NCBI GenBank assembly: GCA_003194525.1
Contig: NBIV01000626.1
Location: 1-22,589 of the forward strand
Origin: Gracilariopsis chorda
Taxonomy: Eukaryota; Rhodophyta; Florideophyceae; Gracilariales; Gracilariaceae
Direction of reading: 5' to 3'
DNA: 22,589 nt
Part shown: one piece after another, positions 1-20,001 of the stretch
Position numbering within the stretch: position 1 is the stretch's first letter
Layout: every line of letters begins with the position of its first letter
Position numbers and translations under genes: made by a program
Notes under the pieces: generated by a model
What the model saw: only the letters and a program-made list of their open reading frames with translations
Databases searched by the model: none
What the model was told of the DNA's origin: nothing

Positions 1-492
1 CCGCCTCCGCGTGTTCTCAACTCCTCCTTGGAGGGAAGCACCGTAGTGTACGGAAGTTCACCCCCCTTGCACATCTAAAGGAGACCCATCATTGGGAGTA
101 CTAATTGTTCCAATCATATTGGTGTTTCGCCCTGTATAGGGAGTCCTGTCCACCGGCATCGCCGTATCTACTCGTCGCTCTCGCGACCCACTCGTCCTTC
201 CTCTTTCCCCTTTTTAGGGTAGCACCTCCCGCTATCCGCGGCCCTCGTGTGCGCATCCGCTCACACACCCCCACTTACGTGGAAACATACCTCTACTGAG
301 GATCACGCCCCGCTCACGCGGATACCGATTCTTCGCCTTCACCTCCCTGCGAGTCGCGACAGGTGTCCCTGGTCTTACAAACCGGCTTCGCCGTGACAAC
401 CTCTGGGAGGGCTCTACCCAACTGGGTTCACCTCGTGAGAGGAGATCCCGGACGTCTTTGGGTGTTTTTCCCCTTTGGGGCATTGCACCACA
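1..492 (+). repeat. 5' LTR, 3' part only
   Basis: This segment repeats 10791-11283 nearly base for base and ends at the same ...GCACCACA terminus. Visible differences from the 3' LTR are two substitutions (near 157 and near 460) and small indels near 350, 397 and 452. The first 314 bp, including most of U3, are off the left edge. It contains small palindromes such as CCGTA-GTG-TACGG (41-53) and CCAAT-CAT-ATTGG (110-122). Open frames of 60-80 codons here are short and duplicated in both LTRs; I do not regard them as genes. Confidence 0.95.
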
Positions 493-495
493 AAG

Positions 496-508
496 TGGTC
501 TCCCGACC
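496..508 (+). other. Primer-binding site and start of leader
   Basis: Three bases after the LTR end, TGGTCTCCCGACC begins with the TGG expected opposite a tRNA 3'-CCA. The matching tRNA would end in GGTCGGGAGACCA. I could not assign it to a particular tRNA. The rest of the leader, to the gag start at 594, holds no gene that I can see. Confidence 0.6.
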
Positions 509-593
509 TAGATCGGTTTTTGTTTTCCCTCTTACGAGTTGTTTTCATTCACCGGAAGTTCCGTGATCGTTCCCGTCGTAACGGTATTTTCTC

Positions 594-2769
594 ATGTCGA
601 GAAATCCCTCCGACGCGGAGCCAGTGGTTACGCGTAGTCGCTCCCGCGACAACGCGGACACTTCCGAAGTTCGGTTTCGTACCCCGTATCCCTATACGGA
701 CAAGTTCCAGCCGTGCTGGCGCCGCTTCATCGCGGAATGATACCCCCGACCGGGAACCCCGGAACCTCCTTTTGCCCTCGTTATCACCCCCGCAGGGGAA
801 TGCAGCATCGACTCCGGCTGTTGCCGCAGTGCCCCAGGCACCCCGGCCTGCTCCCGCTGTCGCGGCTTCAAGCCCCCGTGGAACGGGCGATAACACCCCC
901 CAGGGAACTTCCCTGGAATCCCAGGTCCGCGCTCTGTGGACCGCCCATGACACCCTTGTAGGGGAACTAAAATCCCTCCAAGAGGTGGTCTCGGCAACCC
1001 CCGTAGAGGAGGTCGCCGAGGAACTCCGTATATTTTACGGTCTGACGTCAACTCCGTGTTGGAGAGTTTGGGACAACCCGCCGCCTTCATCGAAGGAGTT
1101 GAAGCCCGATTTGATCGGATTGGTGCCCGCCTGGAGACGCTGGAGCAGTTCGTCCTCATGGACAAAACCATCCCCGGGTGATCCGGTAAACGAGGCATCG
1201 CACAACGACCAGGTTGCTGGGAAGAAGAAACGCCGTCACCGACGGAAACATCACCGAAACTATTCGGACTCCGATTCTTCGACATCGTCGCACTCACCCC
1301 GAAAACCATTCGGTTAGCTCGAGCTCCTCGGACTCCGACTCGGAGGACGAGAAGCGAGGCTACTCCTCCCGCTCGAAGCGGTCATCGGCCACTGAAGCTG
1401 TGGTCCGAACCCGCCAGAAGGGAGAAGACACCCCGGTCTCCGGGAATTGAAACCGACAAACCCGGATTATCGGAAGCTTTTATCATACCGGTACTACCGG
1501 CTTGAAGATTCGTCACTTGGACGTACGCCCGTGGTACGGGAAAGGTGCGAGAATGCATTAAGCGAATGCAGCTCTCGCTCCGCAACCAGTATTTTACTGG
1601 AGAGGACCCAGTCCTAGTACTAGATTTCCTATCCCGCTTTGTAGCGGAGGCCGATATCCTCGGTATGAATGAGGGACAAGCCTATTTGGCTTTACCGTAT
1701 TTCTTACGGGGAGTGGCCGAGGACCAATACACCTCTGTCCGAGGATCTTCTCGCGCCTCCGAGGAGGAGTTACTTGCTGGCCGGAGGCTGTGCAGTATCT
1801 TCTGCGCTCCTACGCCACCAACACCGCTATTCAGCAGGCTATCCTCGCTTTGCGAGATACACGCCAGCGTGCTGGAGAGACCGAGACGATTACTCGGTGC
1901 GCCTTAACAAGGCTTTCCACAGATGTGGTAACGTATACCCCACTGGGGAGCGCAGTACCATGTTCATTGATGGTCTTGACCCGGCAATCCGGAGTTTAGT
2001 TACCCGTTATCGGGAGGACAAGCGAAGGATCACCTACCTCGAGCTGGTCCAACACGCTCGAGCGGAAGGGGATGCACTTCGTGCAAGAACTCCGAACAAT
2101 CGGTCTAAATCCGCCAAGGCGTTGTTGCTGGAAAGCGAAGCTTCCTCTCTCCCGCTCACCGCGGATGGGAACCCTGGACAGGGATTTGATACCGTGCATT
2201 TAGCGCAGGGGGATGGTGTGTCGATACCCACCAGTGAGTTACCGTCAACGACGGAGATGACCCATGATACGGGAACAGAAGATCCCGTTCTATACGGTGG
2301 TAACAGTCGGGTTCAACCCCAACGACTCCCGTTTTCAAACGGTCAATCCCGTTATCAACGGCCTGGATGGACTGACACCCGCCCTGCGGTTCGCTTCTCC
2401 GATACTCGGAATAATAATCCGCGTGTCGCGGTGCTGGCTCTCATTTGCCACCTGTGCTACGCCCATGGCCATACCTCTCCTCAGTGTATTTGTTCACTGA
2501 AGGATATGGCCAAGGTGGTGGCAAATTATGAGGCCCTCACTCCAGAGGAGAAACGTTCCGTCCCGACGGCTTCCTACCTCCGTGCTAAAACGGACTTTTC
2601 TCACGCCCTGCCACAGACCCCGCGTGCGCGGCAAGCTTCATACACCCCGATTCGGGAGATCACGCAACCATCCGTTGCAACCCCCGCTTATGCGGATAGA
2701 AACCCCCGTCAACGGGATGAAGCACTCGTTGTCGAGGAAACCAACCCACCGCCGAAGGTGGAAAACTAA
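594..2769 (+). pseudogene. gag: gag region, multiply frameshifted, with CCHC zinc knuckle
   Basis: Gag would form the particle and bind the RNA. The first plausible start is ATG 594 (MSRNPSDAEPVV...). Gag-like reading then moves between frames: about 709-1036 (coiled-coil-like), 1044-1179, 1180-1317 (basic, then Ser/Asp-rich), about 1310-1447, about 1450-1530, about 1540-1770, about 1775-1890, and finally about 1890-2769. The 1540-2090 part looks like a retrotransposon gag core, with hydrophobic helices and the motif GERSTMFIDGLDPAIRSL. A perfect C-X2-C-X4-H-X4-C knuckle (CHLCYAHGHTSPQC) lies near 2450-2490. The last frame ends with TAA 2767-2769 and overlaps the pol frame. Seven or so frame changes in 2.2 kb are hard to reconcile with an active gag, yet pol is clean. 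Sequencing indels, true decay with gag supplied in trans, or unusual recoding are the options. Confidence 0.75.
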
Positions 2770-2800
2770 CTGAGGGAGTCTCCCCTTTGGGAGAGGCGTC
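2721..2800 (+). promoter_or_regulatory. Candidate gag-pol -1 frameshift region with downstream hairpins
   Basis: The pol frame opens after TGA 2718-2720 and overlaps the end of gag (TAA 2767-2769) by about 49 nt, in the -1 frame relative to the last gag frame. Pol has no ATG for its first 77 codons, so expression as a gag-pol fusion is likely. Just after the gag stop lie two overlapping hairpins, GGGAG-T-CTCCC and CTCCC-CTTT-GGGAG (about 2774-2794). The last gag codons read GTG GAA AAC TAA. GGAAAAC resembles, but does not fit, the X XXY YYZ slippery rule, so the slip site is not settled. Confidence 0.4.
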
Positions 2801-5800
2801 CTCAAAAACGAGGCTGTTGGCGCCCGAGGCGTCCTCGCCTCGCTCCCCGGTGAAAGTCCTCTCGAGGAAAGACACCGCTGACGCGGACTCTGCGCACCTC
2901 GGTGTGTTGCGTCGCCCGTGGATACGGAGTAAAAATCCCCGGATTCCCGGTAGAGTCTTGGTCTTGGCCAAGCGCAATTATAAGGTCTATGCCGACCTTG
3001 GCCTTGACCCCCAGTTTATGGTGAGGTTTCTCACCGTCCTGGATACAGGTGCAGGCCCCAACTTCGTTGTGGAATCATTGTTACCCCCGCTTGTGCGGTC
3101 TCGTATCCGCTCTGACGCGGTCCCCGACATTTCGGATGCGAATAACAACCCGTTACAAACGGTGGGCACGGTGGACCTCGTCGTGAGACTTGGTACCTCT
3201 GTGGTGAAGTTGGACTTCATCGTTTGCCGTTCACTGGCAGCACCAGTCATACTGGGATGTGATTACTGCGACAGATTTGTCGACGCAATCAGGCCCCGCC
3301 TCAGGCGTGTAGAACTTGACGACGGATCGTCGGTTCCGATTGTTCGCCGCCCGCTAAAGCGGTCCTCTCGGAAACAAGTTCCGCTCCCTGCTGCGCAGGA
3401 ACCACCGCCCGCGTCCCGCGAGTCCACCAAGCTCCGCGTCGCTGCCTCGGTTTCTATACCGGCTGAGTCCCAAGTCTGGGTACAGGTAAATTCCCGTCAA
3501 CACGGTCTTCGGGTTATACAACCCCTCGCCTCGTTGTACGAGAAATCCCAGCTGGCGCTGGCTAATGGAATTGTCTCCATTTCCCCGGATGTTCCTTTCC
3601 GGATATTGGTTGCCAATCTTGGCAAACACCCCCAGTATCTGGTCAAACACCAAGTAATTGGGAGTGTAACCCCCCATCCTATGGGAATGCTGCCAACGAA
3701 GATGACAGCCGCCGATGTACTCGGAGTTACCACCTCTTCTGAGGAGTTCACCCCGCCGTCCGAAGACGTCAAGTCTAAGGAGGGGGAGGAAACCGCTACT
3801 TCAGCGTCGAACATACCGAGTAACTCGGAATTGCGAACCACACCTGTTCCACAGGACAATGCTCCATCGAGCAATGACCGGATTGATCCGGAAAAAGCAC
3901 TTGAAGCGCTGGACTTCAGCCACGTGCCAGAGTCGCACCGCGACAAACTCCGTACTATGTTACGGGAATTCACCACAATGTGGGATGGCTCGCTTGGCGA
4001 GATTGATGCAACGGAACACCGGATCGATTTAATCCCCGGTGCGCGACCGGTTGCACAACCCCCTTACAGGGCAGGTCCGAAAGCTCGGGAAGAGGAGCAG
4101 TCCCAGGTGGACAAGATGCTCCGCGCAGGTGTGATTGAGCCCGCTCAATCGCCCTGGGCATCCCCAGTTGTACTGGCTTTAAAGGCTGACGGAACCTGGA
4201 GGTTCTGTGTCGACTACCGCCGGCTCAATGCCGTGACTGTTAGGGACACGTACCCCATCCCTCGTATGGACGAGTGCATTGACTCCCTTGGAGACGCCAC
4301 CGTGTTCACGGCCCTTGATGCCAATTGGGGATATTGGCAAGTACCTGTCAGACAGGAGGATCGCGACAAAACCGCATTCACCTGCCATGCAGGAACGTAC
4401 CGCTTCAAGCGGATGCCATTTGGGTTAACCAACGCCCCCGCCACCTTTCAGCGTGCAGTAGATATTCTACTCAACCGCTTTAAGTGGCGGAGTTGTCTGG
4501 TCTACCTTGATGATATTATCATCTTCTCCAACTCGTTGGACGACCATCTCACTCACGTCCGAGACGTGCTGACCGTACTCCGCGATGCGGGAATTACCCT
4601 CAAGTTGAGGAAATGCGAGTTTTTCACAGATACTGTGAAGTATCTGGGTCACATTATCCGTCCTGGACGGTTAGCGATCGAGAAAGCTCGAGTCAAATCC
4701 CTCGTTGAGGCGAAAGAACCCCGTACTCAAACGGAACTGCGCTCCTTTCTGGGGCTGGTCAACGTCTATCGACGGTTTATCCCGAACTTTTCGGATACTG
4801 CAGCGCCCCTGAACGCGTTGTTGCGAAAGGGGAACCCCCCAAAACTGGGAACATTTACGCCCGAGCAATCGGAAGCCTTTAACTCCTTGAAGGAGGCTGT
4901 CACATCAGCACCAATCCTACATCTCCCAAAACTTGGGTTGCCATACTCCGTAGATACGGACTCGAGCGACTACCAAGTCGGGTGTGCTCTTTTTCAAACC
5001 ACCCCCGAGGGGGAACGACACCCAATTGGTTATTGGTCGCGCTCGCTCAATGTCCATGAGCGGAACTACTCCGTATCGGAGAAAGAGTGCCTCGCCGTCG
5101 TATGGGCGATGACCACTCTGCGCCCCTACCTTATGGGAGTCCATTTCACCGTGTACACGGATCATTCCTCACTGAGGTGGTTAATGAATATCTCCGACCC
5201 GTCGGGACGCCTCATGCGTTGGAGACTCCGCCTCGCGGAATATGACTTCCAAGTCATTTATAAAAAGGGCGCGCAGAACACCCAAGCCGACGCTCTGTCG
5301 CGTTTACCCACAAGTGGGGAGGCACTCCCAACGGAGGATGATGAAGTCCCATGTTTCATGGCAATGGACCCGGATGATCCGGAATGTGTCGTCGAGGCTG
5401 AGCCAGAAAACTGGGACGAAGATGCTGACTTCGACTACCTACTCGCATCGCGAGATGATTCTGAGAAACCCATACCGGGAAATTATGTACCGGTTGAGAC
5501 CGAGGAAATGATCCGAGAACAATTCGGGGACCCCTTCTGTACAAGGATACGTGCACGCCTCAACGGCGGAGAGAACCTCCCCTTCGGGGTGAACGACATT
5601 GGTTACCTCGTGAGGACCGTCGAGGCTACCCCACAAGTTGTGGTACCGCACACGCTACAGAAGCGGATATTGCACCTTTCGCATTACCCGAAACTCGGGG
5701 GACACTCCGGTGGGAGGAAGCTTTATCTAACCCTTCGCAGGGATTTCTACTGGCCCGCCATGGCGGTTGATTGCTACGCTACGGTGCGGTTTTGCACGCA

Positions 5801-8378
5801 ATGCGCGAAGAACCGGGTCAAACTCCGGAAGCACTCCAAACGGATGAAGCTATTCCCCGCCAGGGCGCCGCTCGAGTTTGTCGCAATTGACATTCTCGGA
5901 CCATTGCTCTCTACCAGGAGAGGCAACAAGTTCCTACTCGTTATTACGGACAGGTTCTCGAAATTAGTTCGGACAGTCCCTCTAAAGAGGATTACCGCCT
6001 ACACGGTCGCTCACGCCTTTGTGCGGCATTGGGTGTTTGCCTACGGACCTCCTTTGGAGCTACTTTCCGACAACGGGAAACAGTTCGCATCGCGATTTTT
6101 CCAGGACGTCTGTCGGATACTGGACGTGAAGAATCTCTTCACGACCACGTATCATCCCCAGTCTAATGGGCAGGTCGAGCGTTTCAACCGGACAATGCTC
6201 GCAGCTCTCCGTGCTTACACGGCTGACCACCCCAAGACTTGGGATATCTACACGGATGCCGTGACCTTTGCGTACAATACGCAGGTACACCGGACTACCG
6301 GAATATCCCCTTTCGAGTTGGTCCTTTCACGGACACCCCCGCCAATGGCGTTGGAATCCCAACCTACGTTGGACGCGTTCCCTTCTGTGAAGGATTACCG
6401 CCAGAAGTGGAAAGCATGGCTGACCAAGCTGGTACCCGCAGCGCGGAAGGCGATGGACCACGCCCAAGCCGCCTACAAACGGAATTTCGATGCTCGCTTG
6501 CGAGGAGGCAAACCGGAACAGATCAACTCCGGGGACTTCGTATTCGTCCGCAAGGAGTACTACAACCCTGAAAGGGAGAAGCACCATAAGCTCTCGCCTG
6601 TGGCGGATGGTCCTTTCAAGGTTATCTCCGTCACGACGGACACAGTGGTTGTGGAAATGGGTGACGCGCATGAGCGGTTATCTCGCGATCGCATCGTGCT
6701 AGCTCCGCCACCCTCGACTGAGGCTGCACCAGCTACGCTGGACCCTACGCTGGAATATGGCTCTGCATCCGATACATCGGTGGTGAGACGGCCTACCGTG
6801 CTACCACACCCCTCCCGGGGACTCTCAGACCTACCGACCCTGTCGGACTCACCGGCTCAGCCGGGTAATTCGGGCCTCTCTGTGCCCGCCCCTATGGCGC
6901 GAATCTACACCCGCCAGGCGGGGCATGTTATCCCTTATCCCGCCGCTCCGTCTCAGGAGGGGGAGGAGAACACTCGTTTTCGAGGAATGAGATCGCCGTC
7001 GCAACGGGAAACACGCCGTACCATACGGACAACTGACCGCGGAGCACGGAGTATCTCACGCGACACTAATCCCCCGTCCTCGGGCAGCGCTGTGCAACAG
7101 GAACCAGACGCGCAGGTCCCGCAAAGGCGGCAAATACACCGTGTTACACGGGAAGCTGAAACGCAGCTACCGCACACCCCTGTCAGGGAAGGATCCCCGA
7201 TACGGGAGTACGGCGACAATCGCCCTCAACCCCCTGAGCAGGGAGATGCCTCAAAGCCGCCATTGGCGGAAGTCCCCGCGGAAGCGGTTCAATCAGGTCG
7301 CTCAGACCCGCGCCCCGCGGAGAAGAGGCGCCCAGATACACCAGCGCCGCTGGGAAATACCCACACCCCTATCGGGGAAAAGGGTAGCCAAGCCGCATCC
7401 GAAGCTTCAGGCCCTGGCGCGCAGCGCTCGGAAACGCTCCCCGTCGCAGACGGAATCGAAGCCCCCGTTCCGGGGAATAATTTGCGCCAACTACCGCAAC
7501 GCTGCAGCGAAGAACCGAGGAACTCGGGAAAAACGCGCGCCATCGCACGCTCGAAACCGGTCGTACCGGACGCTGCTCCTCCTCATGGAGACGGTGCACC
7601 GCACTTAGCGGCCAGGCCCCTGAAAAGGGTGTCATCGGCACCTGCCCGGCACCCCCCAAAGGGGAATTTTGACCAAAATACCGGTGTACCGGAGTTAGCC
7701 TTAGGCAACCCCCCAGTAGCCGGGGATACCACGGCGCCGCCGGAACGTACGGTGCAGAGCTCCCGTGCGCCTGGCAGGGAGGCGGTTTGCCATCCAACCA
7801 CCGTGCCGCACGGGACCCCCCAGGGGATCGTGGAAACGCCGATTCCGCAGGAGCGGTCATCTTCCCGCAAACTCGCGGTTCGTGAGTTCAACCGCGAATG
7901 CGGAGTTCAAGTCCCCCGCCGGTTGGCGGTTCGCCTGGCCTACCGTGAAGACGGGAACAACGACACCCCAATGGGGAATGACTTGCCGGGGAAAACCGTG
8001 ACACCACATACCCTCTTGAGGGATATTTTCCCGCATGAGCAGCGGCCACTAGGACAGCGCACGGCAACGTCGGAGTTATCGCCGAACACCCTGCTAAGGG
8101 ACATTATACCGCACCGCGGACAACCCTCGCAAGGGAGTAAAACCACCACCCGGCACGGCCGGCAGGTCTACGAACGAGAGTTCGTAGTAGACCGACTTGT
8201 CGGACACACCTGGGACCAGGATGGTATTCTACAATACCGCGTCCGCTGGTACGGGTACGACCCCAGTGGGGATACGTGGGAGCCAATTGAACACCTCCCA
8301 CGGTCGCAGATCGTGCGATACCACCGTCAAACGGGAACTGCAGCCCCAGCCACGCTGGTTAATGCCCAAGTTGGGTAA
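2721..8378 (+). CDS. pol: Pol polyprotein: protease, RT, RNase H, integrase, chromodomain
   Basis: The frame is open without interruption for over 5.6 kb. Residues are counted from the TTG at 2787. The aspartic protease has DTGAG at 86-90 and ILGCD at 155-159. RT begins near 410, with LDANWGYWQ (Asp511) and YLDD at 573-576. RNase H covers about 718-841, starting with VDTDSSDYQVG and ending with ADALSRLP. Integrase has an HHCC zinc finger (H966, second His six residues on, C1003, C1006) and a DD35E core: D1035, D1095, E1131. A GPY/F-type module (KLSPVADGPFKV) lies near 1270-1280. A proline-rich linker of about 490 residues follows, then a chromodomain at about 1795-1845 (YEREFVVDRLVGHTW...YRVRWYGY...DTWEP). 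All catalytic residues checked are present, so the enzyme set appears functional. Chromodomains of this family guide integration to modified histones. The first in-frame ATG lies well inside the protease, which supports translation by frameshift from gag. Confidence 0.97.
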   Translation, partial: STRCRGNQPTAEGGKLTEGVSPLGEASSKTRLLAPEASSPRSPVKVLSRKDTADADSAHLGVLRRPWIRSKNPRIPGRVLVLAKRNYKVYADLGLDPQFMVRFLTVLDTGAGPNFVVESLLPPLVRSRIRSDAVPDISDANNNPLQTVGTVDLVVRLGTSVVKLDFIVCRSLAAPVILGCDYCDRFVDAIRPRLRRVELDDGSSVPIVRRPLKRSSRKQVPLPAAQEPPPASRESTKLRVAASVSIPAESQVWVQVNSRQHGLRVIQPLASLYEKSQLALANGIVSISPDVPFRILVANLGKHPQYLVKHQVIGSVTPHPMGMLPTKMTAADVLGVTTSSEEFTPPSEDVKSKEGEETATSASNIPSNSELRTTPVPQDNAPSSNDRIDPEKALEALDFSHVPESHRDKLRTMLREFTTMWDGSLGEIDATEHRIDLIPGARPVAQPPYRAGPKAREEEQSQVDKMLRAGVIEPAQSPWASPVVLALKADGTWRFCVDYRRLNAVTVRDTYPIPRMDECIDSLGDATVFTALDANWGYWQVPVRQEDRDKTAFTCHAGTYRFKRMPFGLTNAPATFQRAVDILLNRFKWRSCLVYLDDIIIFSNSLDDHLTHVRDVLTVLRDAGITLKLRKCEFFTDTVKYLGHIIRPGRLAIEKARVKSLVEAKEPRTQTELRSFLGLVNVYRRFIPNFSDTAAPLNALLRKGNPPKLGTFTPEQSEAFNSLKEAVTSAPILHLPKLGLPYSVDTDSSDYQVGCALFQTTPEGERHPIGYWSRSLNVHERNYSVSEKECLAVVWAMTTLRPYLMGVHFTVYTDHSSLRWLMNISDPSGRLMRWRLRLAEYDFQVIYKKGAQNTQADALSRLPTSGEALPTEDDEVPCFMAMDPDDPECVVEAEPENWDEDADFDYLLASRDDSEKPIPGNYVPVETEEMIREQFGDPFCTRIRARLNGGENLPFGVNDIGYLVRTVEATPQVVVPHTLQKRILHLSHYPKLGGHSGGRKLYLTLRRDFYWPAMAVDCYATVRFCTQCAKNRVKLRKHSKRMKLFPARAPLEFVAIDILGPLLSTRRGNKFLLVITDRFSKLVRTVPLKRITAYTVAHAFVRHWVFAYGPPLELLSDNGKQFASRFFQDVCRILDVKNLFTTTYHPQSNGQVERFNRTMLAALRAYTADHPKTWDIYTDAVTFAYNTQVHRTTGISPFELVLSRTPPPMALESQPTLDAFPSVKDYRQKWKAWLTKLVPAARKAMDHAQAAYKRNFDARLRGGKPEQINSGDFVFVRKEYYNPEREKHHKLSPVADGPFKVISVTTDTVVVEMGDAHERLSRDRIVLAPPPSTEAAPATLDPTLEYGSASDTSVVRRPTVLPHPSRGLSDLPTLSDSPAQPGNSGLSVPAPMARIYTRQAGHVIPYPAAPSQEGEENTRFRGMRSPSQRETRRTIRTTDRGARSISRDTNPPSSGSAVQQEPDAQVPQRRQIHRVTREAETQLPHTPVREGSPIREYGDNRPQPPEQGDASKPPLAEVPAEAVQSGRSDPRPAEKRRPDTPAPLGNTHTPIGEKGSQAASEASGPGAQRSETLPVADGIEAPVPGNNLRQLPQRCSEEPRNSGKTRAIARSKPVVPDAAPPHGDGAPHLAARPLKRVSSAPARHPPKGNFDQNTGVPELALGNPPVAGDTTAPPERTVQSSRAPGREAVCHPTTVPHGTPQGIVETPIPQERSSSRKLAVREFNRECGVQVPRRLAVRLAYREDGNNDTPMGNDLPGKTVTPHTLLRDIFPHEQRPLGQRTATSELSPNTLLRDIIPHRGQPSQGSKTTTRHGRQVYEREFVVDRLVGHTWDQDGILQYRVRWYGYDPSGDTWEPIEHLPRSQIVRYHRQTGTAAPATLVNAQVG
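6699..8165 (+). other. Pol linker between integrase and chromodomain, low-complexity and palindrome-rich
   Basis: About 490 codons rich in Pro, Arg, Ser, Gly and Thr separate the integrase C-terminus from the chromodomain. No domain is recognised. The DNA is full of units such as CCCC-AAT-GGGG (7966-7976), CCCC-AAA-GGGG (7654-7664), CCGGT-GT-ACCGG (7681-7692), CCCTC-TT-GAGGG (8011-8022) and CCGC-GAAT-GCGG (7892-7903). The peptide motif TLLRDI-PH occurs twice near 8005-8037 and 8085-8115. The DNA pattern may dictate the protein composition here rather than the reverse. Confidence 0.7.
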
Positions 8379-8761
8379 CGTTGCCGCGCGAGCGGAGGGC
8401 AATGAGAAAGGATAGCAAGGGAAAGTCCGTCTAAGACGGGGAATGCTAATTGGAAATCACCGTTCTAAACGGGAAAGTTTATTCAGGGGAGCAGCTAGCT
8501 CCTCACGATACTACACTACACTAACTGGCATAGCCAGGGAAAGAATACCAGGAAAACTGGACAAAAGGAGCTCACTCTTCGCCGTTGCCCGGGGCGTAAC
8601 CCCCAGCAAGGCGGTAGGCCAACGCGTCCGCCATGGTGGTGACATCCCCCGATACCTCGGCAGCGCTAAGACCGGCACCCCGGAGAAAACGCGCGATGAT
8701 CTCGTTTTCATTCGCCGTTACCCCGCTGGGGATAGAAGGTCCGGCACTCGCCGCCGAAGGG
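8379..8761. other. Spacer between pol and the antisense ORF
   Basis: This convergent spacer separates the pol stop (TAA) from the stop of the antisense ORF. I see no convincing gene. It is dense in mini-hairpins: CCGTC-TAA-GACGG (8427-8439), CCGTT-CTA-AACGG (8460-8472), GGAGC-AGCTA-GCTCC (8488-8502), CTGGC-ATA-GCCAG (8525-8537) and CCAG-GAAAA-CTGG (8548-8560). The pattern persists here without any coding role. A plus-strand open frame over 8443-8814 has no recognisable features and is probably incidental. Confidence 0.6.
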
Positions 8762-10420
8762 TCAGCAGCCGGCTCGGCGCGGAGGTACCCCCTCTGGGGA
8801 AGCTTCCGCGCTAGCGCCGGTGTCCTCTACGTCCATCTCCCCGGGCTCTTCCGGATCGTTATCGACCATTGGGTCATCCCCGCCGTATGCGCGGTAGTAA
8901 TCGTCAGAATCGACGTACCCCACCGGGTGGTCTTCCGGCACATGCCGGGGCGCATCGCGAAGTTCGCGCGCCTCCTCGGAGGAAATTTCCCGGAACTCCC
9001 AGGGGTCGAAGTAGATAAAATCACCCGCAAGGGCGGTGTTTCTACCCAGTCCCGGGCCACCGGTGTTACCGCTGCCGCCATCCAGACGACCGCTTTGCTC
9101 CAGCGGGACCTCACTCCAGCTAACGCTGTCGATGTACCCAAGTAATTGGAGGACCTCTTCATTGTTGGCCTGGCCCCCAAGGGGGATGCGAAGATCCAGG
9201 TTTCGGATCGCTGCCCGCACGCGCGGTTGAAGGAACCAGAGACGATACTGGTCGTACGCCTCGTTGAGGATATAAGCCGCATTGCGGGCCGCCCACTCCG
9301 TAACCACTACGGACCACAACCCCGACCGGGGATCCTGCATGAGCAGTGAACCGAGGTACGTAAGTACCGGCGGAAGTTCTACGTAGCACCCCCGGCAGGC
9401 TTCATGGAAGCGCCACCACTCGGGGAGTGCTACATACCGACCTAGTCGGTGAGGCGGCGCAATCCGCTCTATCTCCACGTTCTGATACGGGATAAAGTAC
9501 CCGAATCGGGATCGCCAACGCCGCTCGTAGCGGATGAAGTTTTGGAGAAAGTTGGACCGGTATTGCCGGGGAAGGTACCTGAACTCCGCCCGAATAATCG
9601 GTCGCTCCCAGCAAAGGGCCTCTTGCCGCGCTGCGGGGAAATTCCTCCAAGCGAGGGTCTCGAGGCGGAACAGGTTCTCGCCGTACCCAATCTCCCCGCG
9701 AGTGCGGAAGTAGCTAATGTCGAAGCCAAACTCCGGTGGGACCGGTACATCGAACGGAGCCCGGCTCTGCCGTTGGTACGCCATGCGCGTCAGCGCGGTC
9801 TGCGCCGCAGCGACGGTCTCGCCCGAATTCCTTCGGAGGTGGTGACGCGGAATCGCGATCCGGTGACGCCAATCCCACGATGTGGTAACTGCTCTGGGCA
9901 GATCCCCCGGAAGGGTGTCTGAGCCATCCGCATAAGCGGTGACCAATCCCTCATTGAGGACGGCGACCGGGTGAAACCACGGGGCAAGGCGCAGGCGCGA
10001 CGCGTGATTCCGATTCATCGGGTTGAGCCCCACCAGGATGTTGTAGGTTGGCCAGTTGGACACCGGAGCGGTTCCGGAGGATCCCACCGAAGGTGGTAAT
10101 GCGAAGGGATGGTTGGCTTCAGCAGCCATATTTCCCGGTTGTACCGGAGGTTGATCGCCCTGAGGCAGGGGAGCTGACCGGAAACCGGTGGTGTATCGCC
10201 CGAGAGACCTCGGAGGTTGGCTGTTGTTGGTGATGTTGTTGTCGTTGTTCAATTCTCCCTCTTCGAGGGTGGTCATTGTTGTTTGTCGGAGTGCGCTCGG
10301 TGACGAGGAAGTGCTGATGCGAGGTGAGGAAATGACAGCTGCAGTAGCAGGAAGTGTTGACTCTGGTGCAGAGGGATTTACCGGAGAACCGGAGACGGCG
10401 CACGCGCTTTTATCACCCAT
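8762..10420 (-). CDS. Antisense ORF of the retrotransposon, unknown function (552 aa)
   Basis: This intact ORF runs from ATG 10420 to TGA 8762-8764, opposite to gag-pol. Its start lies only about 45 bp inside the polypurine tract, so its promoter may be antisense activity of the 3' LTR. I do not recognise the protein. Residues 1-115 are Ser/Pro/Asn-rich and probably disordered. Residues 120-450 look folded, rich in Trp, Tyr and Arg (for example WDWRHRIAIPRHH, RYVALPEWWRFHEACRGCY, WSVVVTEWAARNAAYIL). Residues 480-552 are strongly acidic (Asp/Glu). No signal peptide or membrane helix is evident, so it is not a normal envelope protein. Antisense ORFs downstream of pol are known in some plant Ty3/gypsy lineages (Tat-type such as Grande and RIRE2); whether this one is related cannot be judged by eye. 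An open frame this long in a recently inserted element argues for a real gene. Confidence 0.75.
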   Translation of the reverse strand: MGDKSACAVSGSPVNPSAPESTLPATAAVISSPRISTSSSPSALRQTTMTTLEEGELNNDNNITNNSQPPRSLGRYTTGFRSAPLPQGDQPPVQPGNMAAEANHPFALPPSVGSSGTAPVSNWPTYNILVGLNPMNRNHASRLRLAPWFHPVAVLNEGLVTAYADGSDTLPGDLPRAVTTSWDWRHRIAIPRHHLRRNSGETVAAAQTALTRMAYQRQSRAPFDVPVPPEFGFDISYFRTRGEIGYGENLFRLETLAWRNFPAARQEALCWERPIIRAEFRYLPRQYRSNFLQNFIRYERRWRSRFGYFIPYQNVEIERIAPPHRLGRYVALPEWWRFHEACRGCYVELPPVLTYLGSLLMQDPRSGLWSVVVTEWAARNAAYILNEAYDQYRLWFLQPRVRAAIRNLDLRIPLGGQANNEEVLQLLGYIDSVSWSEVPLEQSGRLDGGSGNTGGPGLGRNTALAGDFIYFDPWEFREISSEEARELRDAPRHVPEDHPVGYVDSDDYYRAYGGDDPMVDNDPEEPGEMDVEDTGASAEASPEGVPPRRAGC

Positions 10421-10464
10421 TTTCGTCTGGGAATCCTCCGCGTCCGCGGTCGTTTTCCCGTCTT

Positions 10465-10476
10465 AGGGGGGGGATA
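10465..10476 (+). other. Polypurine tract
   Basis: AGGGGGGGGATA, with eight consecutive G, lies directly before the TGAAGTG start of the 3' LTR. This is the expected position for the plus-strand primer of reverse transcription and helps to fix the LTR boundary. Confidence 0.85.
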
Positions 10477-11283
10477 TGAAGTGCAACGCCCTCAGGGAGG
10501 GATTCTTGGTACTTGATTGTTTTCCCGATATTATCGGTTGTGTAGTGTGTATATGAACTACGCCCCACAATGGTGGGTATGGACACGTGGGACACGGTTT
10601 TGGGTCAATTGGCGGTTGGCCACAGTAGTGGATGTTGCCACGGAATGTGGAGTATTTTAGTTAATTTTATTTATTATTTTCACACCCATTTCTGGGAAGC
10701 TAGTACTTAGTGCGACGGCGCACTGCCGTCGCACCAGTAAACCTTCCCCAACAAGGGACCCCAACCTGGGGAATTGGCTCTGAGCTTTACCGCCTCCGCG
10801 TGTTCTCAACTCCTCCTTGGAGGGAAGCACCGTAGTGTACGGAAGTTCACCCCCCTTGCACATCTAAAGGAGACCCATCATTGGGAGTACTAATTGTTCC
10901 AATCATATTGGTGTTTCGCCCTGTATAGGGAGTCCTGTCCACCGGCATTGCCGTATCTACTCGTCGCTCTCGCGACCCACTCGTCCTTCCTCTTTCCCCT
11001 TTTTAGGGTAGCACCTCCCGCTATCCGCGGCCCTCGTGTGCGCATCCGCTCACACACCCCCACTTACGTGGAAACATACCTCTACTGAGGATCACGCCCC
11101 GCTCACGCGGATACCGATTCTTCGCCTTCACCTCCCTGCGCGAGTCGCGACAGGTGTCCCTGGTCTTACAAACCGGCTTCGCCGTGACACCTCTGGGAGG
11201 GCTCTACCCAACTGGGTTCACCTCGTGAGAGGAAGATCCCGGACGTCTTTCGGTGTTTTTCCCCTTTGGGGCATTGCACCACA
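10477..11283 (+). repeat. 3' LTR, complete (807 bp)
   Basis: The LTR starts TGAAGTGC just after the polypurine tract and ends GCACCACA, where similarity with the 5' LTR stops. The ends form the usual TG...CA with an imperfect 8-bp inverted repeat (six of eight match). The left edge is confirmed independently, because the inverted partial copy at 11284-11620 ends at exactly this point. U3 contains TATATGAA near 10550, a possible but unproven TATA element, and an AT-rich patch near 10660-10680. It carries palindromes CCGATA-T-TATCGG (10525-10537) and CCCAC-AATG-GTGGG (10564-10577). Confidence 0.95.
10710..10734. repeat. Long perfect hairpin in the LTR
   Basis: The arm GTGCGACGGC (10710-10719) is exactly complementary to 10725-10734 around a 5-nt loop. 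It is the longest perfect stem I found in the element. The inverted LTR copy repeats it at 11363-11387. It could be an RNA structure of the LTR transcript or a protein-binding palindrome. Confidence 0.8.
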
Positions 11284-11620
11284 GGAGTTGAGAACACGCG
11301 GAGGCGGTAAAGCTCAGAGCCAATTCCCCAGGTTGGGGTCCCTTGTTGGGGAAGGTTTACTGGTGCGACGGCAGTGCGCCGTCGCACTAAGTACTAGCTT
11401 CCCAGAAATGGGTGTGAAAATAATAAATAAAATTAACTAAAATACTCCACATTCCGTGGCAACATCCACTACTGTGGCCAACCGCCAATTGACCCAAAAC
11501 CGTGTCCCACGTGTCCATACCCACCATTGTGGGGCGTAGTTCATATACACACTACACAACCGATAATATCGGGAAAACAATCAAGTACCAAGAATCCCTC
11601 CCTGAGGGCGTTGCACTTCA
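11284..11620 (-). repeat. Inverted partial LTR abutting the 3' LTR
   Basis: This is the reverse complement of 10477-10813, equal in length (337 bp) and with no difference that I could find. It starts at the base after the 3' LTR and ends with ...GCACTTCA, the complement of the LTR 5' end, after which AT-rich DNA begins. The simplest reading is that the full element inserted in opposite orientation into an LTR of the same family; self-integration or a fold-back artefact are alternatives. With the 3' LTR it forms a 337-bp inverted repeat around a 470-bp spacer. Confidence 0.93.
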
Positions 11621-11991
11621 GAATTTCTACTGAAAAATATTTCAAGTATTTAGATTAGTTACATTTGCTAGTAATGTTTTGAAATCATTGGAGAATCAAT
11701 ACCATTGTGAGATAAATCTATTTTGCTATATATGCTGTCAAACATTGTTCTATTTTTATTGATATTTAAACATACCCAACCTTGGTTTTCTAATCGATGT
11801 TAACAGCATCTGCGCTTTACAAAACCTTCTGATAACAGGGCTCGTAACAGTCACATTACATATATTACGATTCATATACGATTGTTTCTTAGTAACATTC
11901 AAATATATCTGTAGATTGCACATGGTACAATAGAGGTGTTTTGAAAGCAAGCACCATCAGGTACTAATTTGATTTAGTTTTTGGTTGTTGT
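11621..11991. other. AT-rich DNA without recognisable gene
   Basis: Base composition changes abruptly at the inverted LTR end. I see no coding region, no RNA gene and no dense mini-hairpins here. It is probably older host DNA or a decayed repeat. Confidence 0.6.
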
Positions 11992-12077
11992 CTGACCTCA
12001 TACGAGGTCAGCAAGCCGGTCGGATAGACACTAGTGTCTATCGGACCGGTGCGCTGACCTCATATGAGGTCAGCGCA
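11992..12077. repeat. Cluster of three long palindromes
   Basis: Three palindromes lie side by side. At 11992-12011 arms of CTGACCTC flank a 4-nt centre. At 12016-12049 a 34-bp palindrome has a single internal mismatch pair. At 12050-12077 a 28-bp palindrome is perfect and centres on TGACCTCATATGAGGTCA. The outer two share the same core. Related half-sites (TGACCTCATATGAG at 14827-14840 and TGACCTCATA at 14851-14860) lie on the far side of the piggyBac gene, so the motif may mark the ends of that element. Confidence 0.85.
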
Positions 12078-12192
12078 ACGGCCCGCAAAATTAAAAAAAA
12101 ATTGAAATCTGATCCGCATGGTCCCACATTTCAAATTTCGAACTTGAAACATGGCTAACCAGGTGGTCTTTGAACTATAAGTACTTGTAGAA

Positions 12193-12270
12193 GACGATCA
12201 CTGAGCCATAACAGCAGCTCAGTGGTCGTCAGGTCACATGCGAGCAAATAAACATGAGTTCGAACCTCGC
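12193..12270 (+). ncRNA. tRNA-like / SINE-head-like sequence
   Basis: AGCTCAGTGG (12216-12225) resembles the polymerase III A box, and AGTTCGAACCT (12257-12267) the B box, at a tRNA-like distance. The A box lies in the 3' arm of a 14-bp stem, GACGATCACTGAGC (12193-12206) with 12217-12230, with one T-G wobble and a 10-nt loop. A proper acceptor and anticodon arm are not apparent, so this is not a functional tRNA. The remaining sequence at 12078-12552 shows nothing else that I recognise. Confidence 0.35.
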
Positions 12271-12552
12271 TGAGTTTACATAAACTCCAAACCTCCTTCG
12301 GGAGCTCGACTAATTCTAAATATATTTAAATTCTCAGAACGTTTTTAACACCCACTTGAACAGCAGAAGAGTACGGTGACATCTGTTAAAGGGGCAGTTT
12401 CGTCATAGAGTTTAAATAATCTAGGAAGTCTAAATAACGCGGATTGAATTAGCACATTGCTAAAGGTAAAATGAACTTATTGTTAACTTTTGCATTCAAA
12501 CATACATTTTTAATATAAAAAACGAAGGTTGAAAAGGTTGTTGACATCTTCA

Positions 12553-14655
12553 TCAGCTTCTGAACTTCATTATAACGTGATACTCTTCAATGTGTTTCAT
12601 AAAACAATCTCTATTAGTACCAGTGTGACATAAAAGCACTTCTTTTTCCTTTCTGATATAGCACCCAGAACATAAAAACTGGGTATTTGTATTACGTTTG
12701 CAGAAATTGCATCGTCCTTGATATAAAGATTTTGTAATCTTGCCATGCTTGTTTTTTCTCATTCTATTCGTCTGCATTAAATGCAAGCCAGTGCATGCAA
12801 ACATTGGCTTCTCATGAACATTTTCACATTCTTTCCCATCTCTACTCATTAGACCTGTGGTATCCGATGTATTCTCAATTAGTTTATCAGCCAGTTGGAA
12901 ATAGAAGTGGTGCGGACTTTTCACGTTTCTGGTTCCCTTTGCGGCTTTGTACAACTTCCAGGCGTCCACAATACAAATCAATAAAAGAGAGCAATTCACT
13001 CGAAATGACCACTCTTTCACTTCAATTTTCTTCTCCAGATTCAGATCATCTTGTCTGCATCCGTTATGGCAATCGACCATTGAACAGTTTTTGTAATACT
13101 CTTCACACACTTCGGGAATTGTGATCTCCAATTTCACTTTTTCAGAAATATTTCCCTCCCGTCTCTACCTTTCTCGAATAATAGGAGAACCAGGAATAAC
13201 AGTGCTAGAGGTTGATACGAAATACCTTCTTTCTCTGTCCATCCACATTATAGCCATTACATCATTATTGATAATGCTTCCTTTTGATAGCATAGATACA
13301 GAATCTCCCCTGTCGGATAGAGTAGTTTCAGAGAGATGTGTCATAGGATATTCACGAGTAGAATTTTTGACAACTCCAGTAAACCTTAAACCTTTCTCCA
13401 GTAATGCTTTCGCGGTACTGACAGACGCAAAAAAGGATTCTGCACATGCCAACCTTTCTGATCCAAACCATGGTTGCACTCATCGAAGTAAGACTGCCGT
13501 TCTATGGGCGTTATCAGAATCAAAAACTTGTTCCGGAATATTTGCACCCATATTGAGCTCAATATTCAGCATTATGCCACTTCGTGCACAACATACGGCC
13601 TTCATTTTAAGACCATTTTCCGGCTTTCTATCTAATGCCGTGTAGTGTGGAGGCCCGACATCAATCCAATTACCGCCTAATCCGTACCATCTTGACATTC
13701 GTTCGTCAACACATAAGGCATGTGATGGCGTGACAAAAAACCGACGATGGTCATTGATTGCCCTCACAAAATCTGCTACAAAAGACCAACACGCGATTCC
13801 CTGCTCTTCAGTCACACCATTTCCGCTGAAGCATACTGCACTTCCAAGCATTTCAAATCTGTTCCGTGACATTGCAAGACCAATATTTGGCTGAGGAATA
13901 AACTTAGAAAAATGCTTGAGGCTCCAAAGATCCCTTCTGTTAGAGAACTCAATGCGACTCATGAGGATAAGCATTCCAAAGAATTTGAGCAATTCTCCCC
14001 CTGAAGTCCTCCGAACGTCTTTGCTTTCTAACCTAAAATTTGTTCTGTTCACTATGAACTGCAAATGCTGCATAGGGAGCATCCAAAGGAAGAAAGCTAA
14101 TGCACTCATGTTTGGATAAACGTGACGTGGTGAGATAAAATCTCAGGCTGGGCCAACCACTTTCCACTGATGCATTTGCATACAACCATTCAGAGGACTC
14201 AAAGTCGTACAGGTTTCCCAAACACGACCATTAATCACAGTTGATTGGACAGGTGCATTTTCGCTTAATGAAATGGTTTGCGGCTGCAAAACTTGCATCT
14301 GAGATGGTGTCACAAAAGCATCTTCCTCGACATTTTGCATATTAATGGGTTCAACCTCGGTAATAAGCTCTTCTGCAGCGTTCAAGGCTTCGTCAACACC
14401 GGTATCTAGTTTTACACTAGATAGAGGTAGAGTTACCTCTTTTTCTCGGTTCGGTAGACTAAACTTCACATTCAGAAAAGTGAGATTTCGATTGTTGACC
14501 TTTCGAATGTCAACATTGAGGACAGAACCTTGTACCGTTGTTGACTTTCATAGATATCGATAGTAAAGTTTGCATTCAGCGTCATTTGTAACCAGACGAC
14601 CACGGCTGTTGACAGTTTTTCCAACACTTCTGCGAAGATCTGTGGACGGGGCCAT
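12553..14655 (-). pseudogene. piggyBac-family transposase, full frame with four in-frame stops
   Basis: Starting at ATG 14655 (MAPSTDLRRSVGK...), one reading frame runs about 700 codons to TGA 12553-12555 without any frameshift. It is interrupted by TGA 14548-14550, TGA 14143-14145, TGA 13480-13482 and TAG 13165-13167. The N-terminal part is acidic. The DDE_Tnp_1_7 (piggyBac) core follows: first catalytic Asp in ALCVDERMSRWYG (codon 13705-13707), second site in ACAESFFASV, where the usual Asp is Glu (13438-13440), and third Asp in MWMDRERRYFVST (13237-13239). A Cys-rich C-terminal zinc-ribbon-like domain (CNFC, CSGC, then Cys/His) fits the family. TTAA sites occur at 12091, 14820 and 14844, but the element ends are not settled. 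The stops make it inactive. CGA to TGA and CAG to TAG changes would explain them, but that is inference. Confidence 0.88.
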
Positions 14656-14899
14656 TGTGTACGAATGTTGTTGACGATAGTGCTTGATGTGACAGCTACG
14701 ACTGTTGGTGATGTGTTGTGGACATGGTTCAGCGCTTACGACGGAGAAGACATGATGAGAAGATCAAAGTGAAAAGGTTTTTGGAAAAGTTTTAAGGTTT
14801 TGATAAAGTTCTAGAGTAATTAAAAATGACCTCATATGAGTAATTAAAATTGACCTCATAGTTTTTGCAAGAGCAGCTTCGAGTACTGCAATCGCCCTT
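14656..14899. other. Upstream region of piggyBac gene with half-palindromes
   Basis: Between the transposase start and the next gene the sequence holds TGACCTCATATGAG (14827-14840) and TGACCTCATA (14851-14860), which match the long palindromes left of the transposase. TTAA occurs at 14820-14823 and 14844-14847, compatible with piggyBac target sites. No coding region is seen. Confidence 0.45.
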
Positions 14900-16393
14900 T
14901 CAGTTGTAGCACTTGATAACGCTCTTTATGCAGTTCAATATCGTTTGCATATCCTTCTTTTCCTCAAGTACCACAGTTCCATCCTTCATATACCCCTCCC
15001 TCTCGGTAGCAGCACCCACCGTTGCATCTGACAGATCTATATCATCAGCTCTACCCCAATACTTCATCACAACGAAATCCGCCCTTCCGCAGTGTAACAT
15101 GATATGTACGTTGTGTGGCAGCAGTCTATTAGTCGTGTCAGCATTGTGGGCCACAAAGTTTCTTACATCAACCCACCAGGTGGCACTTTCCACGGCTTCC
15201 TCACTAACAAAGAACGACCTCCTCAGCGAAACAATCTCCCGCGTACTCAGTGTGCCTCGGCCAACCTCTTGCGTTATAAATCGGCGTCGATCACCCTCGG
15301 TGCAGAACTTGGACTTTCCATATCGCGCAAGATATAGAATGCAGAACAGAAAGTCCGCCTCTTCGCGCCTTGCGAGCATTGGGGGAGCAAGGCTTTTCCC
15401 GTATGTACGGAACATTTTTAAAGCACCCCAGAATGTGTCATGTTGCAACCCATATATGGATGGGGTAAAGTCGCATCCAGCCAAGCAGTACATTGCTGCA
15501 ACGCTGCGGCCACAGGTACGCATAGATTGCAACGCCGCGATGGCCAGATCCAAATTATGAAGTGTATCAATCAATACATGTAGAACACCCCTTCCATGCA
15601 TGTATGGGTTACTCATAAGAATTACGAACATGTCCGTGTCGTCAGATACTATCAGAGTTTGACATTCAGTATTCCATGCATTCCTCCCATCACCGCCAAC
15701 GCCGCCCCCTACACGTCCCGGGACCTGACCTCCGTTTCTCTGGCTGACTTCCGGCGAGACGTATTGTTTCGTCACCGCAACAAACCTCGTCTCTGACTCC
15801 CCGTGTCTAATATCAGCGCTGCCAACGGTGGCATTACCATTGGTGTCAAATATTACGCACCTTGATCTTGGAACTGCAAACATGTCTCCGTTTGTGTTCC
15901 TACCTTGCACCCTCCTCTTCAATGTAACTCGCCCTTTCATAACAGCTTCTCTCGTATCTCATGGCAATCTGAAAGACTTGAATTGCGAAGACATGCTCTT
16001 AGCAAAGGCTGCTACAGTGCCACAGAACAAATGCAGCGATGCCAGTTCGTCCTTTTACTCCCTGTCCGTCAATCGAGATATCCATGGAACATATAAATCT
16101 TCATCGAATACAATGCGTGGACAGCTTCCCGTTCTTCCTTGCTCAATCTCGTCTCCCGGTGCCTCCCTTCCCACTCTGCTTGGATCCCTTCTGTCCTGTT
16201 CTGCCCTCTTGTGTGCTGAAACAAAGTTAGGGTCATCAACATGTACATGGAGTTGTCTAAACAGCTGGGCCCGTGGGCCGGTCACCCAAGGTCGAAGGCC
16301 CTTTTTCATTTGGGTCATTCTGGCATCAGGCGAGCGACAGGGTCTTTTCTTGAATGCCCGCGCTAGTGACACCAGAAACGTTGTTTGAACAGG
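14900..16393 (-). pseudogene. XPG/FEN1-like PIN-nuclease domain gene, with in-frame stops
   Basis: The main open part runs from ATG 15940 to 14900 (346 codons). It contains TLIVSDDTDMFVILM (about residues 95-109) and YCLAGCDFTPSIYG (about 151-164). These resemble the acidic I-region and the helix-hairpin-helix start (G-C/S-D-Y/F-T-P-G-I) of XPG/FEN1-family nucleases, so a structure-specific DNA nuclease or a derivative is the best guess. The same frame continues upstream through TGA 15959-15961 and TAA 16055-16057 to about 16393. It includes RIVFDEDLYVPWISRL, which could correspond to the XPG N-region. Reading through without frameshift but with two stops suggests a gene lost by point mutation. 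It lies head-to-head with the J-domain gene, about 260 bp apart, so both could belong to one mobile element. The assignment is moderate because it rests on two motifs. Confidence 0.5.
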
Positions 16394-16651
16394 CTAATGA
16401 CTCTGCGCGTATGGTGCAGTTAGGAGGTGAACAGTCACCTTGTTTGTCAGATCGGCATAGTGACTTATTGCTTGTCACCCTCCGTTTTCGCAAGGCATGT
16501 AGATGTACCCTTTTGCAATTTCAAGTCACTTTTGCACACTGAATGTTCCACTTGTGTGCCTAGACTCACACCCCTGACCCACACTTTGTCTCGATCACAC
16601 CTCTAGCCGCACCATTTCCATCTCTCAATTTGTGCGCAATACACCCAGAAA

Positions 16652-19259: not shown

Positions 19260-19274
19260 TTGCCAGTATGGCAA
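19260..19274. repeat. Small perfect hairpin after the MULE remnant
   Basis: TTGCCA-GTA-TGGCAA forms a 6-bp stem with a 3-nt loop just past the stop of the last frame. It is a single hairpin and may be chance. Confidence 0.5.
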
Positions 19275-19581
19275 CTTTTTGATGAATGAGTAGATCAGAC
19301 TGTTTCTCAAAGAAGTACTTTGCAAGGACGATGAGTATACACGGTGAATATATTGCGGTGAAAGGCAGGCTGCTTTTATTCTATTGTATTTGCAGACTTG
19401 GGTGATCTGTCCTAATTCTAGCCGTATTCAATAGCGTAGCGTGCGACGGAGTTACCCTGCAGAAGCATGTTTTTTGATGGCGCGGAGCGCAGTGAAGTTG
19501 ACTTGCAGAGGCGCGTTATTGAGATTGTGCGGGTTTGTTTTTGGGGTCTATTTGACGGCTTGTAACTTACAAGTCTTGCAT

Positions 19582-19891: not shown

Positions 19892-20001
19892 CTCCATGTC
19901 ACTATCCCATTTCCGCAGTGCGGCCGGTGTCGCTACCCTGTACTGTCATAAATGTAGAAGTCACAGGTCTTGGTATTCAAAAAGGAACCCTGTCACTACC
20001 C

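Follow-up and report, generated by a model that had tools for sequence, protein, structure and literature searches.

Dispersed packaging signals are known from MS2, picornaviruses and the pregenome of hepatitis B virus (HBV), where they are many short stem-loops across the genome that vary in sequence but share a recognition feature, and whose spacing matters (PMC6281560). A similar arrangement is found in the DNA analyzed here, a stretch of 22,589 nt (contig NBIV01000626.1 of the red alga Gracilariopsis chorda; this whole stretch is called the window), in which a Ty3/gypsy retrotransposon is tiled with mini-palindromes. The fixed bases lie in different places, however, as the MS2 motif is located in loop and bulge (PMC6281560), while the loops of our array are near free and the constant part is a CC/GG stem base with an unpaired flank. 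The setting also differs, since ~240 clamped units are found in 10.8 kb of a retrotransposon and binding by a coat protein is putative. In RNA viruses, what defines genome-scale ordered RNA structure (GORS) is an excess of folding energy and no particular design. The array resembles GORS in that structure extends along the whole genome beyond coding need, and is unlike it in having a partial energy excess and a fixed design.

Among retrotransposons, the CGG-CCG boxes of Sirevirus elements (Ty1/copia) are likewise palindromes with a fixed GC signature and a variable interior, but these boxes are clustered beside the ENV gene and in the 3' long terminal repeat (LTR), whereas the array in our Ty3 element tiles gag, pol, LTR and an antisense gene (PMC2829016). 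The array also shares with quasipalindrome mutagenesis that inverted repeats are perfect or more nearly so; this process predicts outward extension, rewriting of one arm and no fixed end (PMC7202029), whereas the present hairpins have a fixed end and in three of four families avoid the outer pair. In its order of reverse transcriptase (RT), RNase H, integrase and chromodomain and in its CCHC Gag, the element is like other Ty3/gypsy chromoviruses, from which the antisense open reading frame (ORF) and the hairpin array set it apart. No report of such hairpin arrays in a retrotransposon was found in searches of open-licence papers. The likeliest use of the hairpins is known in principle, and the pattern itself was not found described.

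We read the mini-palindromes as a single standardized stem-loop present in hundreds of copies, maintained by selection and probably serving as protein-binding sites, and we give this reading as a whole an even chance of being right. Selection on a standardized hairpin is well supported. The design comprises a two-pair CC/GG clamp at the base, two to three free pairs, a loop of mostly 3-4 nt and usually a mismatch outside the clamp.

Stem-loops of this kind (CC-units: 5'-CC, 2-3 bp, a loop of mostly 3-4 nt, GG-3', counted without overlap) number 239 in positions 1-10,789, compared with 24.4 ± 4.0 in dinucleotide shuffles, and every part of the element contains 15-28 per kb. In pol, 118 CC-units were counted vs 18.3 ± 3.6 in codon-preserving shuffles (maximum 29 among 100) and vs 26.2 ± 3.9 (maximum 37) when codon context was also kept. 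Shuffles keeping dinucleotides and codons, which the sequence-only reading had proposed as a check, thus stay far below the observed density. An origin by chance or descent, through base composition, codon usage or ancestral tandem repetition, is a practically negligible explanation of the palindromes, even if the element has 54-64% G+C per kb and some hairpins are shared by descent, as many hairpin positions turn over between families. Chance and codon bias were rejected because shuffled sequences yield as little as one tenth, and at most about one quarter, of the units seen, and tandem-repeat ancestry because Tandem Repeats Finder gives only three short arrays in the window.

Inverted repeats with arms of at least 5 bp and loops of 1-8 nt exceed expectation throughout the element (observed vs expected): 5' LTR 6 vs 3.1, gag region 65 vs 15.7, pol 95 vs 28.4, C-terminal part of pol 37 vs 13.6, spacer 5 vs 1.4, antisense ORF region 34 vs 14.8 and 3' LTR 7 vs 3.0. 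The sequence-only reading had described them as running through all these parts regardless of coding status, and this is borne out. The CC-units of pol have no preferred codon phase (41/40/37). The eight hairpins that it had checked by hand in 4509-5081 are all present as described; its count was incomplete, since two more with arms of at least 6 bp had been overlooked (4627, arm 8; 4658, arm 6), and the 10 now seen compare with 0.76 in dinucleotide shuffles. Its statement that the pattern is not evident by eye in the flanking genes holds from 14,501 on, where three pieces are at chance at the thresholds just given (10 vs 9.3, 17 vs 22.9 and 22 vs 24.0), but less well for the piggyBac stretch at 12,501-14,500, which is slightly high (24 vs 14.4). 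The flank from 11,801 to 22,589 contains 13 CC-units, or 1.2 per kb, a mild excess over the 7.8 ± 2.5 of shuffled sequence. The plus strand has a strong A-over-T skew of 0.286 at 7001-8000 (pol, integrase to chromodomain), and the hairpins there are among the densest.

The outer dinucleotides of the hairpins are strongly constrained. CC..GG ends are found in 125 hairpins (arms of at least 5 bp, loops of 1-5 nt) vs 6.3 expected, about 20-fold, while GG..CC ends are hardly enriched (11 vs 6.0 at the same thresholds; 30 vs 23.0 as counted units). The mean fold energy is -6.11 kcal/mol with swapped GG..CC ends and -5.37 kcal/mol with CC..GG. As the swapped ends are at least as stable and yet hardly used, recognition is implied and stability alone is insufficient to account for the clamp. 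The sequence-only reading had held that arm sequences vary and that the shape is conserved; the inner pairs are indeed free, but the shape is not free of sequence: the outer CC..GG clamp had been overlooked. Sizes are narrow as well, with stems of 4-5 bp and loops of 3-4 nt in 203 of the 239 CC-units (84+63+43+13), and 400 of the 425 maximal stems in family A, to which the element belongs, measure 4-5 bp. Loop bases are near free, and the fixed bases sit at the stem base. Pair triplets in family A occur at chance frequency when they cover the centre (ratio 1.03 odd, 0.90 even), and those leaving a loop of 3-4 nt are in excess by up to 2.1-fold. A pairing excess that starts at the edge of a 3-4-nt loop, with none at the centre, points to fold-back as required by a hairpin.

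The stems also have a preferred end. The -1/+1 pair outside the clamp is avoided in family A (23 vs 53) and in two related families of the same genome, C (10 vs 34) and D (10 vs 25). By permutation (2000 rounds), P is <= 0.0005 for each of the three, and the second outside pair is avoided in A as well (34 vs 59). In family B the first outside pair is not avoided (16 vs 13), and the CC is located one pair further in. These data bear on a mutational origin, in which template switching during reverse transcription (quasipalindrome correction) would perfect palindromes without selection on hairpins, as the sequence-only reading had also suggested. The mechanism itself exists (PMC7202029), it agrees with a pattern indifferent to coding sense, and stems of at least 6 bp are also above expectation. 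But correction should extend arms, and families A, C and D, though not B, avoid pairing at the first position beyond the clamp; nor does it need a CC..GG end, whereas CC..GG is used and GG..CC hardly. The end and flank rules moreover vary among families, and three Copia stretches of the same genome, likewise reverse-transcribed, lack the pattern.

The flank has a polarity. On the plus strand, the base after GG is A in 121 of the 239 units, and in 16 of the 36 within the antisense ORF. Since A follows GG on the plus strand there too, the functional sense goes with the element and not with the gene. An alternative in which the palindromes are double-stranded DNA sites, i.e., half-site pairs for a dimeric DNA-binding protein in chromatin, transcription or integration, would be in line with family C, which has both orientations of the asymmetric flank (GA 29 of 123, TC 23 of 123, the two being mutual reverse complements), and with the repeated palindromic CGG-CCG boxes of Sirevirus elements (PMC2829016). 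We regard it as very unlikely, as the inner arm bases are free yet complementary and the central 3-4 positions in A are without pairing excess, neither of which a dimer site demands; the flank polarity in A follows one strand, and the arrays fill coding regions end to end. In a family C locus (L075), positions 6507-8330 contain 15 G..A and 1 T..C flanks, with T..C common elsewhere in the locus, which may be a regional dialect or an orientation switch within one element.

Variation among copies is informative on selection for the standardized stem-loop. The set of 30 family A copies was confounded by mosaic and divergent copies, and the intra-family test was therefore redone on 19 clean copies after 11 were dropped (10 mosaic in the last 1.6 kb, one divergent). 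Variants shared by at least two copies occur at 3 of 676 stem, 8 of 290 loop and 47 of 3147 spacer sites (P = 0.019), and at third positions the contrast is 0 of 225 in stems vs 37 of 1146 (P = 0.0024). Singletons, which mostly arose after insertion, are evenly distributed over stem (0.027), loop (0.021) and spacer (0.027; P = 1.0); they may include assembly errors, making their evenness less telling, but the depletion of shared variants stands without them. When the 19 A copies were pooled with 23 copies of family B, P was 0.012 for shared variants and 0.78 for singletons. Correction acting inside the transposition cycle is compatible with this contrast, as it too would remove shared variants from stems and leave singletons in place.

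The mosaic copies make up 10 of the 30 (L010, L016-L018, L023, L025, L026, L028-L030). They are 97-100% identical in RT and 72-83% from about the end of RNase H, over their last ~1.6 kb (window ~5.25-6.9 kb), and look like one old recombination that spread. This diverged 3' segment of the ten copies, A2, has 76.8% identity to A, and for 21 of 27 hairpins the positions agree to within 1.6 nt (1.6 expected). Stems are unchanged between A and A2 in 15 of 27 cases, compared with 16.5% for the same shapes shifted by 8-60 nt. Similarly, 17 of 30 D stems are unchanged in A (5.5% in shifted controls), and 20 of 77 hairpin centres coincide within 1.6 nt between A and C (3.5 expected). Some stems are thus kept between families and many others turn over.

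Covariation of the arms, which the sequence-only reading had advised looking for in other family copies, is present and moderate. Double changes restore Watson-Crick pairing in 106 of 235 cases (45%), compared with 42-101 of 210-273 (19-37%) at six slid registers; these counts use ordered, related pairs of the four families, which are non-independent, and are hence given without P value. Pair by pair the covariation is weak, and a moderate excess emerges once pooled. Correction would yield compensated double changes too, but it should rewrite one arm, and among the 54 units that differ between A and D, 33 are changed on both arms, against a high background divergence. Polarising hairpin gains and losses with families B and C gave a weak signal because synonymous sites are saturated (third-position identity ~0.4). 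Taken with the outer pair, the clamp, the family rules and the Copia stretches, the shared/singleton contrast and the compensated changes leave quasipalindrome correction compatible in part but fitting less well, and we consider it fairly unlikely. The other proposal of the sequence-only reading, selection on a folded genome, is supported by shared variants that avoid stems, by unchanged stems above controls in two comparisons, by the avoided outer pair and by the compensated changes.

If selection maintains the standardized hairpins, they would act during the transposition cycle, in a single-stranded form of the genome that is either genomic RNA or first-strand cDNA. The most probable role would be that of repeated, individually weak and interchangeable sites for an element protein that meets the whole genome once per cycle, and the genome would be recognized or condensed at many places at once, like the dispersed packaging signals of RNA viruses. 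Gag with its CCHC nucleocapsid is our first candidate partner, a guess on predicted binding, because binding must be genome-wide, acts at transposition, and the CCHC knuckle occurs in all four families. More tentatively, and with somewhat less than an even chance, the hairpins may form a second, shape-based code running through coding and non-coding parts alike, in which interchangeable hairpins of fixed geometry, in the hundreds, are read by an element protein in RNA or single-stranded cDNA and the end rule evolves into a dialect of each family.

Several results weigh against this reading or restrict it. Among near-perfect units, summed over four families, G.U pairs (63 vs 42.6) rise together with A.C (105 vs 45.8) and other mismatches (262 vs 184.8), and without sites overlapping perfect units the values are 37 vs 34.3, 59 vs 36.8 and 117 vs 139, respectively. 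G.U pairs are thus not tolerated beyond other mismatches, which counts against the reading if plus-strand RNA alone mattered. An A.C mismatch on the plus strand corresponds to G.T on the minus strand. That G.U is not favoured speaks against plain folding of plus-strand RNA, but the flank polarity on the plus strand points the opposite way from the G.U and A.C result. The folding energy has a mean z of -2.1 over 18 windows of 300 nt, with the excess extending up to ~6.6 kb; from 6.6 kb on, z is -1.3 to 0.6 and no clear excess is seen. In the flank the mean z is -1.4 over 12 windows, driven by one at -12.5. Of the regularly folded genomic RNA suggested by the sequence-only reading, selection on the fold is therefore supported, but RNA as such is not, with G.U not favoured and the energy excess limited to ~6.6 kb. 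A protein partner that needs strict pairing is likelier than folding for its own sake.

Further points against are that stems of 6 bp in A (17 vs 5.6), and longer ones, are fewer than shorter stems but above expectation, and that the shared-variant test alone is not significant in B (1 of 220 stem sites, P = 0.52) or C (0 of 484, P = 1.0). Only 14 of 66 A stems are unchanged in D (6.9% in shifted controls), so that 52 of 66 differ, and CC-unit density is uneven among families of the same genome (A 19, C about 16, B 7-9, D 7-8 per kb). In yeast Ty3, nt 429-4979 are dispensable for retrotransposition with proteins supplied in trans, and packaging depended on UTR (untranslated region) or POL sequences (PMC4974528). 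The dispensability of this internal region implies that dispersed internal sites are no general need of Ty3 elements (PMC4974528).

The sequence-only reading had placed the mini-palindromes every 20-30 bp, with centres mostly 17-45 bp apart. Pair distances show an excess at 20-23 bp (43 vs 23.4), a depletion at 28-31 bp (3 vs 20.0) and a weak excess at 40-43 bp (30 vs 21.2); short-range order near 20-23 bp is thus confirmed, and no long-range regular lattice was found in the pair distances. Neighbouring hairpins are often about 20-40 bases from each other. Gaps of at least 30 bp between CC-units contain additional hairpins with other ends (arms of at least 5 bp; 81 vs 36.7). A further alternative is host-defence evasion or protection, in which small RNAs, deaminases or nucleases would find the folded RNA or cDNA of the element hard to target or to use as a template. 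A spacing of ~20 nt would be close to small-RNA length, and if the hairpins formed in minus-strand cDNA, a mild excess of A.C over G.U would be in keeping with this. The alternative is clearly unlikely, as only 37% of the 21-mers in the element contain a whole 4-bp stem-loop (12% in the flank and in one shuffle), so that most windows of that size are open, and blocking access needs no fixed CC/GG clamp that is unpaired outside.

Should the reading as selected, protein-bound stem-loops be true, the element would be an unusually clear sequence-level case of a retroelement genome in which selection favours one physical shape, repeated from end to end, and pol would serve the protein and the hairpin together. 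Families with different end rules in one nucleus would then be natural swaps for a test of it.

The element and its parts are as follows:

1 to 11,283, plus strand: Ty3/gypsy chromovirus retrotransposon of family A, from Pfam domains and LTR pairs elsewhere; hairpin array end to end.
1 to 492, plus strand: remainder of the 5' LTR (its 3' portion, beginning near LTR nt 314); repeat of 10,790-11,283, cut by the contig start.
496 to 513, plus strand: putative primer-binding site, TGG start just inside the LTR end; suggested by position, with no tRNA match.
531 to 2769, plus strand: leader and gag region, with a CCHC zinc knuckle at ~2446-2487.
2787 to 8378, plus strand: pol ORF of 1863 aa, from the ORF list and Pfam.
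~4182 to 4658 and ~4854 to 5243, plus strand: RVT_1 and RNase H, respectively, within pol (Pfam).
4509 to 5081, plus strand: sub-region named in the sequence-only reading, 10 inverted repeats (arms of at least 6 bp, loops of 1-7 nt; 0.76 expected).
~5643 to 6158 and ~8181 to 8324, plus strand: integrase and chromodomain, respectively, within pol (Pfam).
8762 to 10,420, minus strand: antisense ORF of 552 aa, with 36 CC-units.
10,465 to 10,476, plus strand: putative polypurine tract directly before the 3' LTR, whose start at 10,477 suggests it.
10,477 to 11,283, plus strand: 3' LTR of 807 bp with TG..CA ends, from genome matches.
11,283 to 11,620, minus strand: inverted LTR piece (nt 1-338), 100% identical (inverted repeat 10,477-10,814 / 11,283-11,620).

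The order of RT, RNase H, integrase and C-terminal chromodomain (Pfam RVT_1, RNase H, H2C2, rve and chromo, the last with E = 4.6e-10) identifies family A as a Ty3/gypsy chromovirus. The element does not end at 10,813, as the sequence-only reading had stated, but with the 3' LTR at 11,283. LTR nt 1-807 are spanned at 99-100% identity by 40 of the 45 matches listed (best 40 of 1825 candidates scored), and same-strand LTR pairs 10.7-10.8 kb apart are found elsewhere in the genome (e.g., contigs C161, C290, C8, C23 and C46). The inverted LTR piece is best read as the mark of a probable insertion of the element into another LTR of family A that lay in the opposite orientation. In some other copies inverted LTRs also directly adjoin LTRs (G000 C290:67557-68360, C119:222930-223753 and C82:301867-302344). 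The gag frame of the window copy is broken into several ORFs (475-1317, 1545-1907 and 1669-2769); at the gag position, L075-L077 have a single long ORF each, of 715, 647 and 689 aa.

The antisense ORF matches no Pfam family at E <= 0.01. Scoring of 7998 candidates gave seven relatives, of which three have a named source, Gracilariopsis chorda for two and Gracilaria domingensis for one. Minus-strand ORFs are also present in L076 (8171-9901) and L077 (7934-9001). No known RNA families or tRNA genes were detected in the window at the thresholds used. The RT region has at least 91 copies of 97-100% identity in the genome searched (G000; 91.3 Mb, 1081 contigs; 91 of 5101 candidates scored), and among named proteins the nearest, at 73%, belongs to the red alga Agarophyton chilense. 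In a plasmid collection, three records have RT matches of 28-43% identity, and scans of viral contigs confirmed no relatives of the element.

The sequence-only reading had recommended looking for the pattern in other elements of the host, and it is present in three more Ty3 families (B, C and D) and absent from the sampled Copia. The proteins of these families are 69-74% identical to A, third codon positions are ~40% identical between A and both B and C, the hairpin end and flank rules differ, and gag contains the knuckle CX2CX4HX4C in all four (one copy each). The three Copia stretches are at chance, with 2, 0 and 0 CC-units vs 1.6, 2.2 and 1.8, and a chaperonin gene and a putative ORF of the LINE type (long interspersed nuclear element; Exo_endo_phos) have no array. 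At three loci that surround further Exo_endo_phos genes, CC-units number 2, 4 and 7 (2.6, 3.8 and 2.9 expected), with a mild excess of any hairpin with arms of at least 5 bp (34-35 vs 26-27). Compared with the density of host genes, another check the sequence-only reading had named, the element stands far above the sampled loci, although the last of these is somewhat high (7 vs 2.9).

Outside this genome, the comparison covers eight loci, i.e., few sequences, from prokaryote metagenome-assembled genomes (MAGs) that resemble eukaryotic contaminants. L066 (72% identity over 134 residues) has 71 hairpins with arms of at least 5 bp vs 28.8, without a CC preference (CC 13 vs 5.5, GG 16 vs 6.2) and mainly with odd spans, although 4-nt loops are raised as well (32 vs 16.6). 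L061 (54% identity) shows a weak excess in the same count (80 vs 61.2), partly due to one recurring palindrome. Mild excesses without a CC clamp are found in L063, L064 and L067 (67 vs 47.6, 113 vs 80.2 and 40 vs 31.0), and no clear departure upward from expectation is seen in L062, L065 and L068, which are close to it or lower (42 vs 55.0, 40 vs 42.0 and 61 vs 51.6), again for arms of at least 5 bp. CC-units are not in excess in the distant Ty3 loci L062-L065 (34-39% identity; 1 vs 1.9, 7 vs 6.2, 7 vs 7.3 and 11 vs 9.4). On these few outside sequences, the hairpin trait seems confined to one Ty3 clade and the clamp to part of that clade.

Some minor observations concern these loci and the flank. 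L061-L067 (GTDB contigs) are Ty3-like sequences in MAGs that bear the names of cyanobacteria, proteobacteria, Gottesmanbacteria and an archaeon; contamination of reference genomes is the probable cause. In L061, binned with a Moorena MAG, the 3' part of the Ty3-like locus (6293-7948) contains the palindrome GCGCC, 3-nt spacer, GGCGC nine times. In the flank of our element, a 45-nt palindrome (89% complementary) at 11,992-12,073, close to the piggyBac-like ORF, may be a DNA transposon end.

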